A stretch of 64,000 bases of DNA, from NCBI GenBank assembly GCA_913058575.1, contig CAJXRF010000008.1, positions 1 to 64,000 of the forward strand. Reading direction: 5' to 3'. A program made the position numbers and the translations under genes. Each line of letters begins with the position of its first letter. Position 1 is the stretch's first letter. This document shows positions 13,914 through 22,870 of this stretch, piece after piece. The stretch comes from an uncultured Bermanella sp. (GTDB lineage: Bacteria > Pseudomonadota > Gammaproteobacteria > Pseudomonadales > Oceanobacteraceae). The notes beneath the pieces are model-generated. The model saw only the letters and a list, made by a program, of their open reading frames with translations. It had not been told where the DNA came from and searched no databases.

Positions 13914-14201
13914 TTAATCGATCACCTTAGGGACAAGGAAAAGGCCGTCTTCCTGAGCAGGTGCACAGGCCATGAATTTTTCACGTTGGTTTGTTTCAGT
14001 CACCACATCAGCGCGTAAACGCTGAACTGCATCAGTAGGGTGTGCTAATGGCTGAACGTCATCGGTATTTACCGCATTCATTTGCTCTACTAATTCAAGG
14101 ATATTACTAAGATCGGATTGATATTGACCAATCTGGTCTTCGGTTAGACTTAAGCGGGCTAATTCCGCAATATTTTTCACATCTGAGCGATCAAGCGCCA
14201 T
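13914..14201 (-). CDS. gatC: Aspartyl/glutamyl-tRNA(Asn/Gln) amidotransferase subunit C
   Basis: Small linker subunit that stabilises GatA-GatB, 95 residues from ATG 14201. The frame is open 51 nt further upstream, but [19 protein letters not shown] is the family N-terminus and a GGTAGAGAG purine-rich site sits just upstream of this ATG. It shows the typical [14 protein letters not shown] helix and the C-terminal LFLVPKVID. It is the first gene of gatCAB, divergent from mreB across about 127 nt that must hold both promoters. Confidence 0.95.
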
Positions 14202-14292
14202 GGTATTCTCTCTACCTTTGAGTGCATCTTTAAAAGGGGTATAAGTTAACACATTTGTGCCTTGCTCAAAAAGCCCGCCGTTGATAGTCTAG

Positions 14293-15369
<1,077 letters not shown>

Positions 15370-15451
15370 TCATTTAATTTAATTAAATGATTGTCCAACA
15401 CAGAAGGTAAACTTGTATCATCTGTGTGGCCATTGAACTAAGGAGCTAGAC

Positions 15452-16330
15452 ATTAAGGGTATCTTTTCTGCTGGGCCAACCCTAGGCTACCGTTTATTCT
15501 TTGCGGTATTTTTATCCTCTGCCCTCATGATTTGCGATAAATACATGGAACCTACCAAGGATGTTCGTAGCGCCTTGGGGTATCTTGTGCTGCCTGTGCA
15601 ATGGGTGTCGAGTTTGCCTGGTCAATTAGGTGTATGGGCAGGTGAATCGGCCATGAGTCACGCAAGTTTATTGGAAGAAAATAATCGTTTACGCTTAGAG
15701 TCACTGGTACTTAAGCAAAAAGTACAGCAAATGATCTCAATTCGCACCGAAAACCATCAACTACGCGAGCTTCTTAATACTTCTGAGCAACTGGACGATA
15801 AAATTCTAGTGGCTGAGCTTATTGGAGTAGATCCCGACCCTTATACTCACCATATTATTCTTAACAAAGGCCAGCAGCATGGCGTATTTGTGGGGCAGCC
15901 CATATTAGATTCGCAAGGGCTAATGGGGCAGGTGATTGAAGTCTTGCCGTATACCAGCAGAGTATTATTGGTGGCTGATAATAATCACGCTATACCTGTT
16001 CAGGTAAACCGTAATGGCGTTAGAGCAATTGCGGTAGGGTCAGGCAAGTTAGATGAATTAATTCTTATATACGTACCAGATACCGCAGATATTAAAGTGG
16101 GAGACCAATTAGTGAGCTCTGGCTTAGGCGGACGCTATCCTAAAGGCTACCCTTTGGGTGAAATAAGTCAGGTATCCCATGATCCTGGGGAGCCATTTGC
16201 CATTGTAAAAGCAACGCCTGCCGCGAGTTTAGACAGAAGTCGTCATGTTCTACTGGTGTTCTCGATGGGCAGCCAGTTACCTAAAACGCCTTTAATTGTA
16301 GAGCCTTCCCAGACTGAGGAAGCACCATGA
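15452..16330 (+). CDS. mreC: Rod shape-determining protein MreC, apparently with an ATT start codon
   Basis: Periplasmic scaffold of the elongasome: an N-terminal membrane segment, a coiled coil (about residues 70-115) and two beta-barrel halves, 292 residues. The first ATG in frame is 15527, but that would cut off KGIFSAGPTLGYRLFFAVFL, which is the conserved MreC N-terminus (KxIFSxGPSLxxRL) plus half of the membrane segment. In frame upstream there is a TGA at 15434, then AAGGAG at 15440-15445, 6 nt, and ATT at 15452. No ATG, GTG or TTG lies between the TGA and 15527. ATT initiation is therefore the best reading. It overlaps mreD by 4 nt (ATGA). Confidence 0.85.
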   Translation: MKGIFSAGPTLGYRLFFAVFLSSALMICDKYMEPTKDVRSALGYLVLPVQWVSSLPGQLGVWAGESAMSHASLLEENNRLRLESLVLKQKVQQMISIRTENHQLRELLNTSEQLDDKILVAELIGVDPDPYTHHIILNKGQQHGVFVGQPILDSQGLMGQVIEVLPYTSRVLLVADNNHAIPVQVNRNGVRAIAVGSGKLDELILIYVPDTADIKVGDQLVSSGLGGRYPKGYPLGEISQVSHDPGEPFAIVKATPAASLDRSRHVLLVFSMGSQLPKTPLIVEPSQTEEAP

Positions 16331-16797
16331 TAAAAGCGTATTTGGTCATTCTACCAACATTTTTTGTGGCGTTTGTTTTTGCCATCTTTCCTTTAGCGAA
16401 ATACTTAGATTATGTTCGCCCTGAATGGGTGGCCATGACGTTGATATTTTGGGTGTTAGTATCCCCTAATCGTGTGGGAATTTTCATGGGGCTATGTATG
16501 GGGCTATTGCTTGATGTATTGCATGGTCAAATATTGGGCTTAAATGCTTTGGCACTCAGTGTATTGGCCTATTTATGTATGCTGCTTCATTCGCGGATGC
16601 GCCTTTATAATACTATTCAGCAAAGTTGTTTGGTTTTTGTGCTGGTGGGCTTGTATTTATTGGTAAGCTACTGGAGTGAGTCTATTGTGGTGGGTCAGGG
16701 GAATATAGCCTTATTATGGCCATCTCTTGGCAGTGCACTCATTTGGCCTGTTTGGTATAACTTGTTATCAGCTGTACGTCGTTACTTTAGGGCTTAA
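16327..16797 (+). CDS. mreD: Rod shape-determining membrane protein MreD
   Basis: Hydrophobic inner-membrane protein of 156 residues with about five predicted membrane segments. It is the third component of MreBCD. The conserved segment YVRPEWVAMTLIFWVLVSP near residue 30 and GLLLDVLHGQILGLNAL are typical of MreD. It overlaps the mreC stop by 4 nt, so translation is likely coupled. Confidence 0.93.
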   Translation: MIKAYLVILPTFFVAFVFAIFPLAKYLDYVRPEWVAMTLIFWVLVSPNRVGIFMGLCMGLLLDVLHGQILGLNALALSVLAYLCMLLHSRMRLYNTIQQSCLVFVLVGLYLLVSYWSESIVVGQGNIALLWPSLGSALIWPVWYNLLSAVRRYFRA

Positions 16798-16829
16798 TTG
16801 GTAAGTGGCCCGTATCTCTATGGAACTAC

Positions 16830-17417
16830 ATGAATAAGCTTATTTTGGCATCGGCTTCACAGCGTCGAAAAGAACTGTTGCAGCAAATAGGGGTCTACTT
16901 TAATTGCATGCCCATGGACATTGATGAAACCAGTTTACCAGATGAAGATGCCCAAGCTTATGTGTTAAGGCTGGCAGAACAAAAAGCGTTAGCAGCATTG
17001 CCCAATTCCAATGGATTACCTGTATTAGGGTCTGATACCTGTATTTTATTGGATGGTGAAATTATGGGTAAACCTAAGACTGAACAAGATGCCATAGATA
17101 TGCTAAGGCGGTTGTCGGGTAGAGATCATCTTGTGAAAACGGCAGTGGCGTTGTGTTGCGAAAAGGATTCAAAAGTTCAGTTATGCTCTGAGGTGGTAGA
17201 GACTCAAGTTAGTTTTGCTGAATTAAGTGATGCACAAATAGTCAACTATGTGAAAACCGGTGAATCCATGGATAAAGCCGGAGCTTACGGTATTCAAGGG
17301 CGAGCTGCCGTTTTTGTAAGTTGCATTAATGGCAGCTATAGCAATGTGGTGGGATTACCTTTGGCAGAAACGGCTCGAATGCTAGAAAAAATGGGTGTTG
17401 AAATCTGGCAATACTAA
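16830..17417 (+). CDS. maf: Maf/YhdE-family nucleoside triphosphate pyrophosphatase
   Basis: House-cleaning pyrophosphatase predicted to hydrolyse dTTP/UTP or modified nucleotides. 195 residues, starting LILASASQRRKELLQQIGV, the Maf signature, with LGSDTCI (catalytic Asp), GKPKT and the GAYGIQGRAAVFV motif. It lies between mreD and rng as in Pseudomonas and Escherichia. The YhdE subgroup is favoured by synteny. Confidence 0.93.
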   Translation: MNKLILASASQRRKELLQQIGVYFNCMPMDIDETSLPDEDAQAYVLRLAEQKALAALPNSNGLPVLGSDTCILLDGEIMGKPKTEQDAIDMLRRLSGRDHLVKTAVALCCEKDSKVQLCSEVVETQVSFAELSDAQIVNYVKTGESMDKAGAYGIQGRAAVFVSCINGSYSNVVGLPLAETARMLEKMGVEIWQY

Positions 17418-17502
17418 ACAGGTATTTAAGCCTATTAGAAGCCTTGGCATCAATAATTGAATTTAACCCGTCTGTTAATAGACACATTAAAGTAGTCGGC
17501 TA

Positions 17503-18978
17503 ATGAATACTGAAATACTGTTAAATGTAACACCCACGGAAACCCGCATGGGGTTAGTGGAAAATGGTGTATTACAGGAAATTTACATTGAACGCAGTAA
17601 TTGCCGTGGCATTGTTGGCAATATTTATAAAGGCAAAGTGGTGCGTGTGTTGCCGGGTATGCAAGCCGCATTTGTTGAAGTGGGTTTAGAGCGCGCAGCA
17701 TTTATTCATGCAGCTGATATTCAAGGGCCTATAAAAACCAGTGAAGCTGCAAGAAAACAACCCGATGCCATTAGTAGCTTACTGCATGAAGGTCAAAGCT
17801 TAGTGGTACAGGTCACTAAAGATCCTATTGGTAGCAAGGGTGCACGGCTCACTACCCATATATCTATACCATCTCGTTATCTCGTATTTATGCCTAATAC
17901 TCAGCACGTGGGCATTAGCCAGAGAATTGAAGATGAAGGGGAGCGCGAACGTTTACGTAACCTTGTTCAAACTTGTATGAAAGAAGAGGGTTTAACCGAT
18001 GAGTGTGGTTTTATCTTGCGCACAGCAGCCGAAGGCGCGGGTGAAGACGAAATTTTAAGTGACACTCGGTATTTACAACGAGTATGGAATAAAGTTCAAG
18101 AACGAATTAAGACCGTGGCTGCACCAGGTAAAATTTATGAAGAATTGCCACTTCACCTTAGAACATTTCGAGACTTTATTCGCCCTGATGTAGATAAGGT
18201 ACTGATTGACTCGAAAGAAAATTACCAAAACTCCCAAAAGTTTGCTCAATTATTTGTTCCTGAAGTCAGTGAGAAACTAGAATATTACCCTGGGGAGCGC
18301 CCCATTTTTGATTTGTATTCAGTAGAAGATGAAATTCAAAAAGCCTTAGGTAAAAAAGTACAGCTTAAGTCAGGCGGTTATTTAATAATCGATCAAACCG
18401 AAGCCATGACAACGGTAGACGTCAATACCGGTGGTTTTGTTGGTCACAGAAATTTAGAAGAAACCATTTTCAAAACCAATCTTGAAGCGGCTACGGTGAT
18501 TGGTCGTCAGCTTAGGCTGAGGAACTTGGGCGGCATCATCATCATTGATTTTATTGATATGGAAGATGTGGAACATCAGCGTCAAGTGTTAAGAATGCTT
18601 GAGAAAGTGCTGGAAAAAGATCATGCAAAAACAAAAATTAGCCAAGTATCTGAGCTAGGCCTAGTTGAGATGACTCGTAAGCGTACTCGCGAAAGCTTAG
18701 GCCAAATGTTATGTGAGCCCTGCACGCATTGTGCTGGTCGGGGTACGGTTAAAACGCCGGAAACTGTTTGTTATGAAATATTCAGGGAGCTTCTTCGTGA
18801 AGCTAGAACCTATGATGTAAACGGCTATCTCATTCTGGCTGCGCAAAATGTAATAGACTTATTGCTTGATGAAGAAAGTCAAAGCTTGGCTGATTTAGAA
18901 AATTTCATAGGTAAAACCATAAAATTGCAAGTTGAACCCATGTACAGCCAAGAGCAGTATGATGTGATTCTTCAATAA
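17503..18978 (+). CDS. rng: Ribonuclease G
   Basis: Endoribonuclease of the RNase E/G family, involved in 16S rRNA 5' maturation and mRNA decay. 491 residues, the usual length for RNase G and lacking the long RNase E scaffold. It has an S1 domain at about 38-120, the DNase I-like catalytic motif DVNTG at 306-310 with the second Asp at 349 (IIIIDFIDM), and Cys404/Cys407/Cys410 in CEPCTHC for the zinc link between dimers. Followed after 4 nt by yhdP. Confidence 0.96.
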   Translation: MNTEILLNVTPTETRMGLVENGVLQEIYIERSNCRGIVGNIYKGKVVRVLPGMQAAFVEVGLERAAFIHAADIQGPIKTSEAARKQPDAISSLLHEGQSLVVQVTKDPIGSKGARLTTHISIPSRYLVFMPNTQHVGISQRIEDEGERERLRNLVQTCMKEEGLTDECGFILRTAAEGAGEDEILSDTRYLQRVWNKVQERIKTVAAPGKIYEELPLHLRTFRDFIRPDVDKVLIDSKENYQNSQKFAQLFVPEVSEKLEYYPGERPIFDLYSVEDEIQKALGKKVQLKSGGYLIIDQTEAMTTVDVNTGGFVGHRNLEETIFKTNLEAATVIGRQLRLRNLGGIIIIDFIDMEDVEHQRQVLRMLEKVLEKDHAKTKISQVSELGLVEMTRKRTRESLGQMLCEPCTHCAGRGTVKTPETVCYEIFRELLREARTYDVNGYLILAAQNVIDLLLDEESQSLADLENFIGKTIKLQVEPMYSQEQYDVILQ

Positions 18979-18982
18979 ACTC

Positions 18983-21900
18983 ATGAAAAAAACAGCTATT
19001 AAGCAAGGCCTAAACGGCCTGAACCTATTGCTGGTGGCAACCTTTTTAGTGTTGGCTCTATACAGTGCAATAGGTCAGCAGATCCTTCCATATATTGGTC
19101 AATACAAATACGATACAGAGCGCTATTTAAGTGAAAAGCTAAAAAGCCCTGTGAGTATTGATTTAATATCTGGGGATATGCAGATGCTAACGCCATCCAT
19201 TCATGTGGAAGGTATCACCCTGCAGGGTGTGGACTCCAAACAAAACCCTATATTAAAAATCTCATCTGTAGATGCAGTTTTAGATTCTAGACTGTCTCTT
19301 GTCAACTTAGCACCTGTCTTTAAATCCATCCGTTTATCTGGTGTTTCATTGACTCTGGATGAAAATATGATCTCTGCTAGTACTGATGACAACAATTCAA
19401 ATAATGCCTTGGTAATTCAAAGCTTTGTTGAAGGTTTGTTGTTGCAACAGCATATTGAGTTTAGCGATGTCAGCATTGAAACGAATATAAAGGATCAAAA
19501 GCAAACCTTATCGTTTGATCAATTGGTAATGACAGGAGATGGGTTTAATCGTCTTATGACTGGCAGTTTAAGTTACGGACAGGAAAATGAGATAAAAACG
19601 GCGATTCGAATATACAGTCAAGGTAGTCCATATAATTTACCTGACTTTTATGCTCGGGGAGTCATGGAGATTCCAAATCTAGACATAGCCTATTGGTTAA
19701 GTAAATTCACAGATAAATCTTCAATTTCTGAAATGCATGCATCAGGTATTCTAGGGTTTGAATTTAAAAGTGGCCTCTTGAATTATGCCAAACTCAATGT
19801 AGTGAGCCCGCAGTTAAGTATTTTAAATAAAGCTCCAATAAAACAGATAAGTACGGAAATCTGGCTTAAGCAAAAAGGCCCTGATAGCTGGGGGTTGTGG
19901 CTGGAAGAAGGGGCTTTTCGTCTAAACGAAAAAAAATGGCAGATTGATAATGTGGGGCTAGAGTTAACAAAAACAGTTGACGGTGCTCGCTGGCATGGCT
20001 TTTTAAAGCATATGGATTTGCAATATTGGCAGCAACTTACGACTGATCTTGCTGTTCTGCCGAGTAACCTATCAGAACTCATTACTGGTCTTAATCCTTC
20101 CGGTGACATTCACAATATAAATCTGATATATCAGCATAAAGAAGAACAAGACCCTGAATTTACCATAGCCGGTGAATTGATTAACGTGTCCACTCAGGCC
20201 AATGAAGGAATACCTAAATTAGTGAATGTAAGCGGTGTGGTGGCTACCAGTCAGGATCGCGGCAGGCTACAGTTTTCATCAGAAAATATGGTGTTATTTT
20301 TCCCTGAAATTTACCAAACCCCCTTTCAAATTAATAAAGGCCAGGGGCAGATAGATTGGTACCTAGAGGAAAAGCAAACAAAACTGGTGGGTAACGGCCT
20401 TAAATTAAATATAGATGGGCTTGAAAGCGTTCAAGGGGGTTTTCAATTGTGGCTGCCAAAAGAAGCAGTGGTGGAACCCGCCCTTGCTTTGAATCTATCA
20501 TTGAATCACGCTAACGTGAATATGCAAAAGGTATTCGTGCCTGAAGTCGTGGATGAGGGGTTAAAGGATTGGCTGAATAATGCATTAATTCAGGGGGCTG
20601 TGGAAAAGGGGAATTTCTTTTTATACACATCTTTGGCTGCAGAAAATTCACAGGCGCAGATGGAGATGTATTTCGATTTTGATAACGTAAATTTAGAGTA
20701 TCTTGATGGTTGGCCAGAGATTGAAAATTCAAAGGGTAAGTTATTCATTGAAAATAACTTAGTCCTTGGCTCTATTAAATCAGCGACGACCTTAGGGGGA
20801 GAGTTAAGTCATGCCCAAGTGGCATTTCAGCAAGACATTAACGAAAATGGCTTTTTGTGGGTTGAAGGTGACTCCCACGGTAATGGCCACGAATTTTTAT
20901 CTTATTTACAAAGTACAGATCTTAAAGAATTAGTGGATAACATTATGGATGATTGGACTTTAACAGGGTCTCATCAAACAAAATTAGGACTTAAAGTCCC
21001 GCTAGATACACCCATTGAAGATATCAAAGTCGATGTAAGCAGCAGTTTAATTAAGTCAGACCTATATATATCCCAGGCTGATTTAACTTTATCGTCATTA
21101 GCTGGGAAAATTAACTACCGTAGTAGTGAAGGACTTACCAGCTCCAGTTTGGCAGCTAACTTATGGGGCCAGCCAATTAATGCTGTGATTAAAAGTCAGG
21201 TAAGTGAGAGTGATTTAAAAGCTGATATTGCCTTCACTGGCGTAGTTGAGGCTAATTATTTAAAGGACTGGCTAAAACTTGGGTTACTAAACCCTCTATC
21301 AGGCAGTTCATTGGTAAGTGGGCATTTTCTAATTGATACTCATGACACAGGTTTTACAGGTCTAAATATAGAGTCCAACCTGAAAGGCTTTACATTGGAC
21401 TTGCCAGAGCCATTTTATAAGAAACCTCAAGATGAAGTGGACTTTAATACCAGTTTGAAAATTGATGAAGGATTAACCTTAAAACTCTCATATGCTGATA
21501 AAGTTAATTTGGCTTTGCGTATGGAGAATGAACTTCTAGCATCAGGGCAGGTATTTCTCGGTGCCACCGAAGCTTATGTGCCAAACACTCAAGGTCTGAC
21601 AATTCAAGGTCACCTGCCTACTATGAATTTAGATGACTGGTTGGTGGTTTGGGAAGGGATTACGGGCCTTAGTGATCGTTATTCATCAATTAAAGATGAC
21701 AATGAGAGCGATAACCTTATTAATAAAATAGTTTTAAGCAGTGATGAGGTGACCATAAAGGATTTAAAATTTGAGCATGTTAAATCTGAAATTAAAAAAA
21801 GTGGTGACGACTGGGTATTGGATGTAGATTCACCAGTGGCAAAGGGCCAGCTTGTTTATAATTTAAATGAGCCTACTTTAATTAACTTAGACTATTTGCA

Positions 21901-22870
21901 TTGGCCCATGCCACAGCAAGAAAATGAAATAGAGGAATCAGACCCACTTGTGAACATTGAGCCTAGTGAATTCCCCTCCTTAGATTTTGATATAAATGAA
22001 ATTTTTGTTGGCCCCACCAACTATGGCCAATGGAAGATGAAACTCAGACCTAGCGCTGAAGGAGCAAGTTTAACCGACATTGTTGGCAATATTAAAAAAC
22101 TAGATGTTAAAGGGACAATTAACTGGAATAAAACATTAAACAGTGAAGATGGACAGTCAACTGGATTTAACCTTTTACTGTCAAGTAAGGATGTAGGGGG
22201 GATTCAAAAAGCTTGGCATAAAAAACCAGCCGTGGAAGCAGAATTTGGCGAAGCAAAAATTGATATTACTTGGCAAGCTAATCCGCTGGACTTTCAGTTT
22301 GAAAGTTTAAATGGCACGTTAGATATTAATTTTAAGGATGGCCGATTCATTGAAACAGGTGATACGGCGGCGCTAAGTGCATTTGGTATTTTGAATTTTG
22401 GAGCGATTGGTAGGCGTCTGCGCTTAGACTTTTCTGATGTTTATCAAAGTGGTTTGCATTTTGACAGCGTAAAGGGAAAGACCAAAATAACAAATGGGCT
22501 TATCAATATTATTGATACCATTGACTTCCAAGGGCCTTCAGCTAATTTTTCAGCTAGTGGCACAGTCAATACTTTGAATAAACAATTAGATCAAGAGCTA
22601 TCAGTGACCTTTCCTGTTTTTAGTACCTTACCCTTGGTAGCGATTCTTGCTGGGTTTGCTCCTCCTATAGCGGCTTCAATTTTTGTGGGTGAAAAATTAG
22701 TGGGGGATGAGATTGAGCGATTCTCCAGTGCAACCTATAAACTTACCGGCACCTGGGATAAACCTGAATTAAATATTATGAAACGCTTTGATAATGATAT
22801 TGAAGGTAAAAAAGAAAAAACCTTTTGGCATAGAATGAAAGATGTATTTGGTATGGGGAGTGATGACTGA
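18983..22870 (+). CDS. yhdP: YhdP-family AsmA-like envelope protein (bridge lipid transport)
   Basis: Very large (1295 residues) inner-membrane-anchored protein with a single N-terminal membrane segment (about 13-35) and a long periplasmic repeat region of beta-taco type. YhdP, with TamB and YdbH, is known in Escherichia to carry phospholipids to the outer membrane. The C-terminal part (SAFGILNFGAIGRRLRLDF, then the VFSTLPLVAILAGFAPPIAA stretch) is the conserved YhdP C-terminus. It sits between rng and a nitrilase-family gene, as in Pseudomonas, and overlaps the latter by 1 nt. Full length, no frameshift seen. Confidence 0.92.
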   Translation: MKKTAIKQGLNGLNLLLVATFLVLALYSAIGQQILPYIGQYKYDTERYLSEKLKSPVSIDLISGDMQMLTPSIHVEGITLQGVDSKQNPILKISSVDAVLDSRLSLVNLAPVFKSIRLSGVSLTLDENMISASTDDNNSNNALVIQSFVEGLLLQQHIEFSDVSIETNIKDQKQTLSFDQLVMTGDGFNRLMTGSLSYGQENEIKTAIRIYSQGSPYNLPDFYARGVMEIPNLDIAYWLSKFTDKSSISEMHASGILGFEFKSGLLNYAKLNVVSPQLSILNKAPIKQISTEIWLKQKGPDSWGLWLEEGAFRLNEKKWQIDNVGLELTKTVDGARWHGFLKHMDLQYWQQLTTDLAVLPSNLSELITGLNPSGDIHNINLIYQHKEEQDPEFTIAGELINVSTQANEGIPKLVNVSGVVATSQDRGRLQFSSENMVLFFPEIYQTPFQINKGQGQIDWYLEEKQTKLVGNGLKLNIDGLESVQGGFQLWLPKEAVVEPALALNLSLNHANVNMQKVFVPEVVDEGLKDWLNNALIQGAVEKGNFFLYTSLAAENSQAQMEMYFDFDNVNLEYLDGWPEIENSKGKLFIENNLVLGSIKSATTLGGELSHAQVAFQQDINENGFLWVEGDSHGNGHEFLSYLQSTDLKELVDNIMDDWTLTGSHQTKLGLKVPLDTPIEDIKVDVSSSLIKSDLYISQADLTLSSLAGKINYRSSEGLTSSSLAANLWGQPINAVIKSQVSESDLKADIAFTGVVEANYLKDWLKLGLLNPLSGSSLVSGHFLIDTHDTGFTGLNIESNLKGFTLDLPEPFYKKPQDEVDFNTSLKIDEGLTLKLSYADKVNLALRMENELLASGQVFLGATEAYVPNTQGLTIQGHLPTMNLDDWLVVWEGITGLSDRYSSIKDDNESDNLINKIVLSSDEVTIKDLKFEHVKSEIKKSGDDWVLDVDSPVAKGQLVYNLNEPTLINLDYLHWPMPQQENEIEESDPLVNIEPSEFPSLDFDINEIFVGPTNYGQWKMKLRPSAEGASLTDIVGNIKKLDVKGTINWNKTLNSEDGQSTGFNLLLSSKDVGGIQKAWHKKPAVEAEFGEAKIDITWQANPLDFQFESLNGTLDINFKDGRFIETGDTAALSAFGILNFGAIGRRLRLDFSDVYQSGLHFDSVKGKTKITNGLINIIDTIDFQGPSANFSASGTVNTLNKQLDQELSVTFPVFSTLPLVAILAGFAPPIAASIFVGEKLVGDEIERFSSATYKLTGTWDKPELNIMKRFDNDIEGKKEKTFWHRMKDVFGMGSDD

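Follow-up and report, generated by a model that had tools for sequence, protein, structure and literature searches.

Where does translation begin in a gene whose conserved N-terminus is headed by none of the codons ATG, GTG or TTG? The mreC locus of an uncultured Bermanella sp. raises this question, and we addressed it in a stretch of 64,000 nucleotides (contig CAJXRF010000008.1, positions 1 to 64,000 of the forward strand; hereafter the window), taken from a genome of 5.7 Mb, and by comparison with the homologous loci of other gammaproteobacteria.

The mreC locus of the window

As expected for the MreC family, mreC (15452..16330, plus strand; 292 codons and a stop) is placed between mreB (14329..15369, plus strand; ATG start; PF06723 and NF010539), the upstream gene of an apparent mreBCD operon, and mreD (16327..16797, plus strand). 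The extent of mreC is given by its open frame, by alignment with E. coli MreC and by profile searches that identified the product with TIGR00219 (196.6 bits against a cut-off of 92.75) and PF04085 (146.6 against 28). The ATG of mreD overlaps the mreC stop (ATGA), so that translation of mreD is probably coupled to that of mreC. The gene order mreB-mreC-mreD-maf-rng-yhdP (14329-22870; families named by profile) is the same in E. coli.

An earlier note on this DNA had proposed that mreC starts with ATT, downstream of an in-frame TGA that leaves only a short stretch with no canonical codon (defined here as ATG, GTG or TTG), and behind an AAGGAG motif spaced by 6 nt. All of these features are borne out by the letters, which read TGA (15434-15436, plus strand; the upstream bound of the open frame), ACT AAG GAG CTA GAC, ATT (15452-15454, plus strand) and AAG GGT ATC TTT TCT, with the Shine-Dalgarno (SD) motif AAGGAG at 15440..15445 on the plus strand. 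None of the five codons between TGA and ATT is canonical, and the first canonical codon of the open frame (15437-16330) is an ATG at 15527..15529 (plus strand), which is codon 26 when counted from ATT. A gene finder that accepts canonical codons alone would place the start at this ATG.

The region upstream of mreC was also inspected for signals and structures. Scanning positions 14200-17000 returned 2 sigma-70 sites versus 6.0 in shuffled sequences and 1 terminator versus 2.8 in shuffles, both below chance. A fusion of mreB and mreC by frameshift was considered and rejected, since the two genes are in different frames and stop codons separate them. Two hairpins are predicted in tandem at 15360-15427, directly 5' of the mreC SD: an AT-rich one running from the end of mreB into the intergenic region (15360..15396, plus strand) and a second at 15398..15427 (plus strand), in the fold of which the SD and the start codon are unpaired in the centroid structure, not in the minimum-energy structure. 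They rise weakly above chance, as the whole 141-nt stretch that was folded has a z of -1.81 and 7 of 200 shuffles were equally stable. For Cupriavidus metallidurans, excerpts of one report mention a large stem-loop located between these two genes, which may be a small RNA (PMC13192273).

ATH codons at the mreC start of gammaproteobacteria

The homologous codon is ATT in all 8 congeners among the matches returned, each with AAGGAG or TAGGAG just upstream. We then collected mreC loci from relatives, from named genome contigs (the best 80 of 96), from a sample of 370 genomes of the class, of which 337 gave a match, and from further loci, mostly one per family; since only the best 150 matches per search were listed, the sample leans to lineages near the window and near E. 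coli and is no census. Removal of 24 duplicates from 350 loci left 326 distinct gammaproteobacterial mreC loci, a set that excludes a second copy of the window, the infC and pcnB loci, the loci from other classes and 25 loci of an apparent Pseudomonas genus (L423-L447), which include two genomes already represented in the 326. For 12 loci we corrected the start manually, moving it one or two codons (7 to a canonical codon, 5 to ATH, that is ATA, ATC or ATT), and 10 of these also stand in the trees used below.

An ATH codon occupies the aligned position in 225 of the 326 loci. In 185 of them there is no in-frame canonical codon back to the upstream stop (ATC in 95, ATT in 69, ATA in 21), which argues that the ATT of the window is no chance event; the other 40 have a canonical codon also upstream in frame (38 loci) or end with their contig (2 loci). 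Canonical starts were found at 37 loci (32 ATG, 3 TTG, 2 GTG). The remaining 64 have another codon at the aligned site (20), could not be placed (41) or have no upstream sequence (3). Among the 61 loci of the first two groups, a canonical codon lies a few codons away at most in 38 and ATH alone does so in 11, so that the true canonical share exceeds 37 of 326. Counted by family code alone, because coded and named family labels cannot be matched, 72 of 170 codes contain ATH-only loci and no canonical one, 29 contain canonical loci and no ATH-only one, 3 contain both and 66 neither. The ATH start of mreC is thus neither universal in the class nor required.

Named genera with ATH include Halomonas, Hahella, Reinekea, Saccharospirillum, Mangrovitalea and Porticoccus. 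Balneatrix and Pokkaliibacter (L043 and L047), with a GTG one codon past the aligned position, are exceptions among the named Oceanospirillales, and at three loci (L162, L203 and L230) translation may begin three codons earlier, at an ATA or ATC. Beyond the class, we compared 20 loci of the same phylum, each from a different family code. All of them have one or more ATG, GTG or TTG codons ahead of the part of MreC that aligns; because their N-termini could not be aligned, all that can be said is that a canonical start is available there.

Translation from the ATH codon and its alternatives

Conservation, SD position and the type of codon substitution agree in placing the mreC start of the window at ATT, and from these comparisons we regard this assignment as near certain. 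Among ten close relatives, codons 2-25 vary at 24 of 24 third positions and 11 of 24 second positions, with 380 synonymous and 432 other codon differences in pairwise comparison, while the ten codons upstream of ATT show 12 synonymous versus 341 other differences and are not coding-like. The N-terminal alignment with E. coli MreC is gap-free and puts the E. coli ATG on the ATT of the window. With mreB as a control, the start was readable in 147 of 210 anchored ATH loci, and in all 147 a canonical codon (ATG in 142) lies no more than 8 codons before or 5 codons after the aligned start.

Three other accounts of the ATT codon were weighed against these data. Translation could begin at the ATG at 15527, the first canonical codon in the mreC frame, leaving the conserved stretch before it untranslated. 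That stretch varies like coding sequence, and E. coli ATG does not align with codon 26, which itself is ATG in 8, TTG in 1 and ATC in 1 of the ten close relatives; moreover, in none of 210 ATH loci does the first canonical codon downstream have a strict SD core (AGGA, GGAG or GAGG at -15 to -4) in front of it. Such a product would also lose much of the membrane anchor, for which the earlier note had expected a loss of half: judged by hydropathy alone, the best 19-residue mean is 1.67 (at residue 10) from the ATT start versus 1.02 from ATG26. A value of 1.67 is itself marginal for a membrane helix by the usual cut-off. On balance, we consider initiation at codon 26 highly improbable.

Equally improbable in our estimate is that ATH encodes an internal isoleucine of a protein begun further upstream by frameshift, read-through or another non-canonical codon. 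A conserved isoleucine would likewise vary among ATA, ATC and ATT alone, and some of the 38 loci with a canonical codon also upstream in frame may start there. This account is opposed by the SD core at start distance from ATH, by upstream codons that show no sign of coding in those ten relatives, by the E. coli ATG in the same alignment column and by the little room that many loci leave, with at most five codons from the upstream stop to ATH in 74 of 175 definite ATH loci and a single codon in 16. Finally, a sequencing or assembly error at 15452-15454, which the earlier note had named as a possible refutation along with an alignment of related genomes as a check, has a negligible chance of being the explanation: ATT and the SD are common to all 8 congeners returned, which excludes a one-off error, and ATH recurs in the related loci described above.

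Shine-Dalgarno strength and start codon type

The SD motif of the window is typical of loci with ATH. The strict SD core was found before 131 of 185 ATH-only starts versus 5 of 37 canonical starts (Fisher p 8e-11 on raw counts), and the mean anti-SD duplex energy was -8.05 kcal/mol for ATH versus -3.74 kcal/mol for canonical starts; windows shifted as a control contained the core in 0 to 22 of about 209 loci. Where the mreB start could also be read (147 ATH loci), the core precedes mreB in 19 and mreC in 103, so it is the weak codon that goes with the strong SD. When SD and start type were compared on independent branches, 5 well-supported pairs were available and the median sign-test p values (0.63 and 0.38) were not significant. 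The trade-off between SD and start codon is thus strong in raw counts and not established on independent branches.

Pseudomonas loci and the published MreC numbering

In the apparent Pseudomonas genus, all 25 genomes have ATH at the mreC start (ATC in 23, ATA in 1, ATT in 1), and 23 of the 25 have no canonical codon upstream in frame. The single ATA occurs at L443, most of its relatives having ATC. The genus is apparently Pseudomonas because the MreC of one of its genomes (G469) nearly matches chain 6ZLV, which we take to be P. aeruginosa MreC, with about six differences in 139 residues by manual count.

Residue numbers for P. aeruginosa MreC have been published by Martins et al. 2021 (PMC8137920, from which excerpts were available). 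Numbering a locus of the apparent Pseudomonas genus (L403) from ATC as codon 1, we found that among offsets from -30 to 39 an offset of 16 alone fits all five residues given in those excerpts. The frame of this locus has its first canonical codon, a GTG, at position 17, and the 14 residues counted from it (VLAVLSVALMVVDA) are short for a membrane helix. In the structural literature, 14 residues are credited with a cytoplasmic part and a membrane helix, which is few for a normal helix. Because only the offset of 16 fits, the published P. aeruginosa MreC appears to begin 16 residues late, at codon 17, judged from the loci of relatives of PAO1. This agrees with the expectation in the earlier note that annotation would truncate MreC, the P. 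aeruginosa numbering in these excerpts fitting a start 16 codons after the conserved ATC of the relatives. Other genomes of the apparent Pseudomonas genus have their first canonical codon at position 11, 13, 16, 17 or 20.

A possible limit on MreC and MreD synthesis

What could such a start be for? We think it likely that a strong SD combined with a weak AUH start, against which IF3 discriminates, limits the output of MreC and of the coupled MreD. The initiator tRNA-Met would initiate mreC at a non-canonical AUH codon (AUU here) placed by the strong SD, which would keep the ribosome bound to the message while AUH delays its commitment. Since IF3 rejects weak codons of this type, mreC initiation would be limited, and synthesis of MreC and of the translationally coupled MreD would lag behind that of MreB, although all three are encoded on one message. 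Because mreD overlaps mreC, a weak mreC start would lower both proteins relative to MreB; the four-base overlap is present in 69 of the 153 ATH loci read, and in the window. The AUH arrangement is kept over many gammaproteobacterial families. Most lineages with AUG, GUG or UUG have no strong core in their SD, a pattern that would suit a fixed low output as the target. The start site and its conservation come from comparison of the loci; that low output is the purpose, that mreD is coupled to mreC and that the start responds to IF3 we infer.

Conversely, the AUH start might be an evolutionary relic, an ancient weak start that persists because a strong SD compensates for it and that has no regulatory use today. 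Neutral compensation also predicts a strong SD with ATH and a weak SD with canonical codons, and mreC has moved between ATH and canonical starts on about 20 occasions or more. Yet ATG is one base away from every ATH, and in trees of 207 rows the third base switched among A, C and T at least 44 times, roughly double the minimum of 20-22 exchanges between ATH and canonical codons. In addition, MreC and MreD dosage matters in E. coli: excerpts of one study report that overexpression of MreC or MreD deforms the cells in rich medium, an effect that nearly vanishes in minimal medium at 28 C, and its authors stress balanced expression there (PMC7793260). We therefore regard a relic as rather unlikely, and return to the start as a limit on output.

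The suggestion that a weak start sets MreC levels, also made in the earlier note, is plausible. It is favoured by the deformation of E. coli cells by excess MreC in those excerpts (PMC7793260) and by an SD core that is common with ATH and rare with canonical codons; it is limited by the facts that E. coli mreC itself starts with ATG and that ATH is not universal. The titles and abstracts of the open-access matches listed (subscription papers and preprints lie outside this scope) contained no paper that links mreC with a non-canonical start, and these open-access matches yielded no protein, ribosome-profiling or IF3 data for an ATH mreC. The mreC start codon is not discussed in the available excerpts of PMC3244453, PMC6212727, PMC13192273 and PMC2170320, which contain mreC together with a start-codon term.

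A further-reaching possibility, which we offer tentatively and consider unlikely as it stands, is that across many gammaproteobacterial families, apparently including Pseudomonas, IF3 sets the synthesis of the elongasome scaffold MreC (and of coupled MreD) through the conserved AUH start and so would tie wall elongation to the translation machinery, MreC and IF3 rising together when free IF3 falls relative to ribosomes. If these readings hold, a rod-shape gene would join infC as AUH-started across many gammaproteobacterial families, database entries of MreC that start at a canonical codon further downstream would be missing part of the membrane anchor, and there would be a concrete link between IF3 and cell shape.

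Comparison with known starts

The closest comparison is with E. coli mreC, which shares the gene, the place in the operon and the N-terminal sequence (MKPIFSRGP) and differs in its ATG start and in the lack of a strict SD core. In E. coli, pcnB, encoding poly(A) polymerase I, has an AUU start and its output is kept low. Among 17 pcnB loci taken as an intended second positive control, 14 with a readable frame, pcnB reads as ATG in the genus of the window (9 loci: L364-L366, L368-L372 and L374), whereas mreC is ATT there.

Streptomyces sigR, whose GTC start is repressed by IF3, as tested experimentally according to excerpts of PMC5472188, resembles mreC as a gene outside infC with a non-canonical start that is mis-annotated in genomes and limits a dosage-sensitive protein, a property that for mreC we propose. 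It differs in its codon, in encoding an oxidative-stress regulator and in its experimental proof, the AUH start of mreC being known from sequence.

According to the same excerpts, infC is among the rare well-characterised genes that start with a non-canonical codon, which in E. coli is ATT (PMC5472188). As a control, we found no canonical codon upstream in 25 of 30 infC loci of relatives, and in 7 congeners infC carries ATA or ATC, one codon and then ATT near its start, the window's own infC not being among the loci. Since pcnB is ATG, of infC, pcnB and mreC only infC (in the 7 congeners) and mreC have ATH here. Like infC, mreC has no canonical codon at its homologous N-terminus, an SD at normal distance and AUH in relatives, and in both genes an AUH start without a canonical alternative is kept in many lineages. 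They part in what they encode: infC, which starts with AUU, AUC or AUA and is autoregulated, encodes IF3, the discriminating factor itself, and hence forms a feedback loop, whereas mreC encodes a cell-shape protein.
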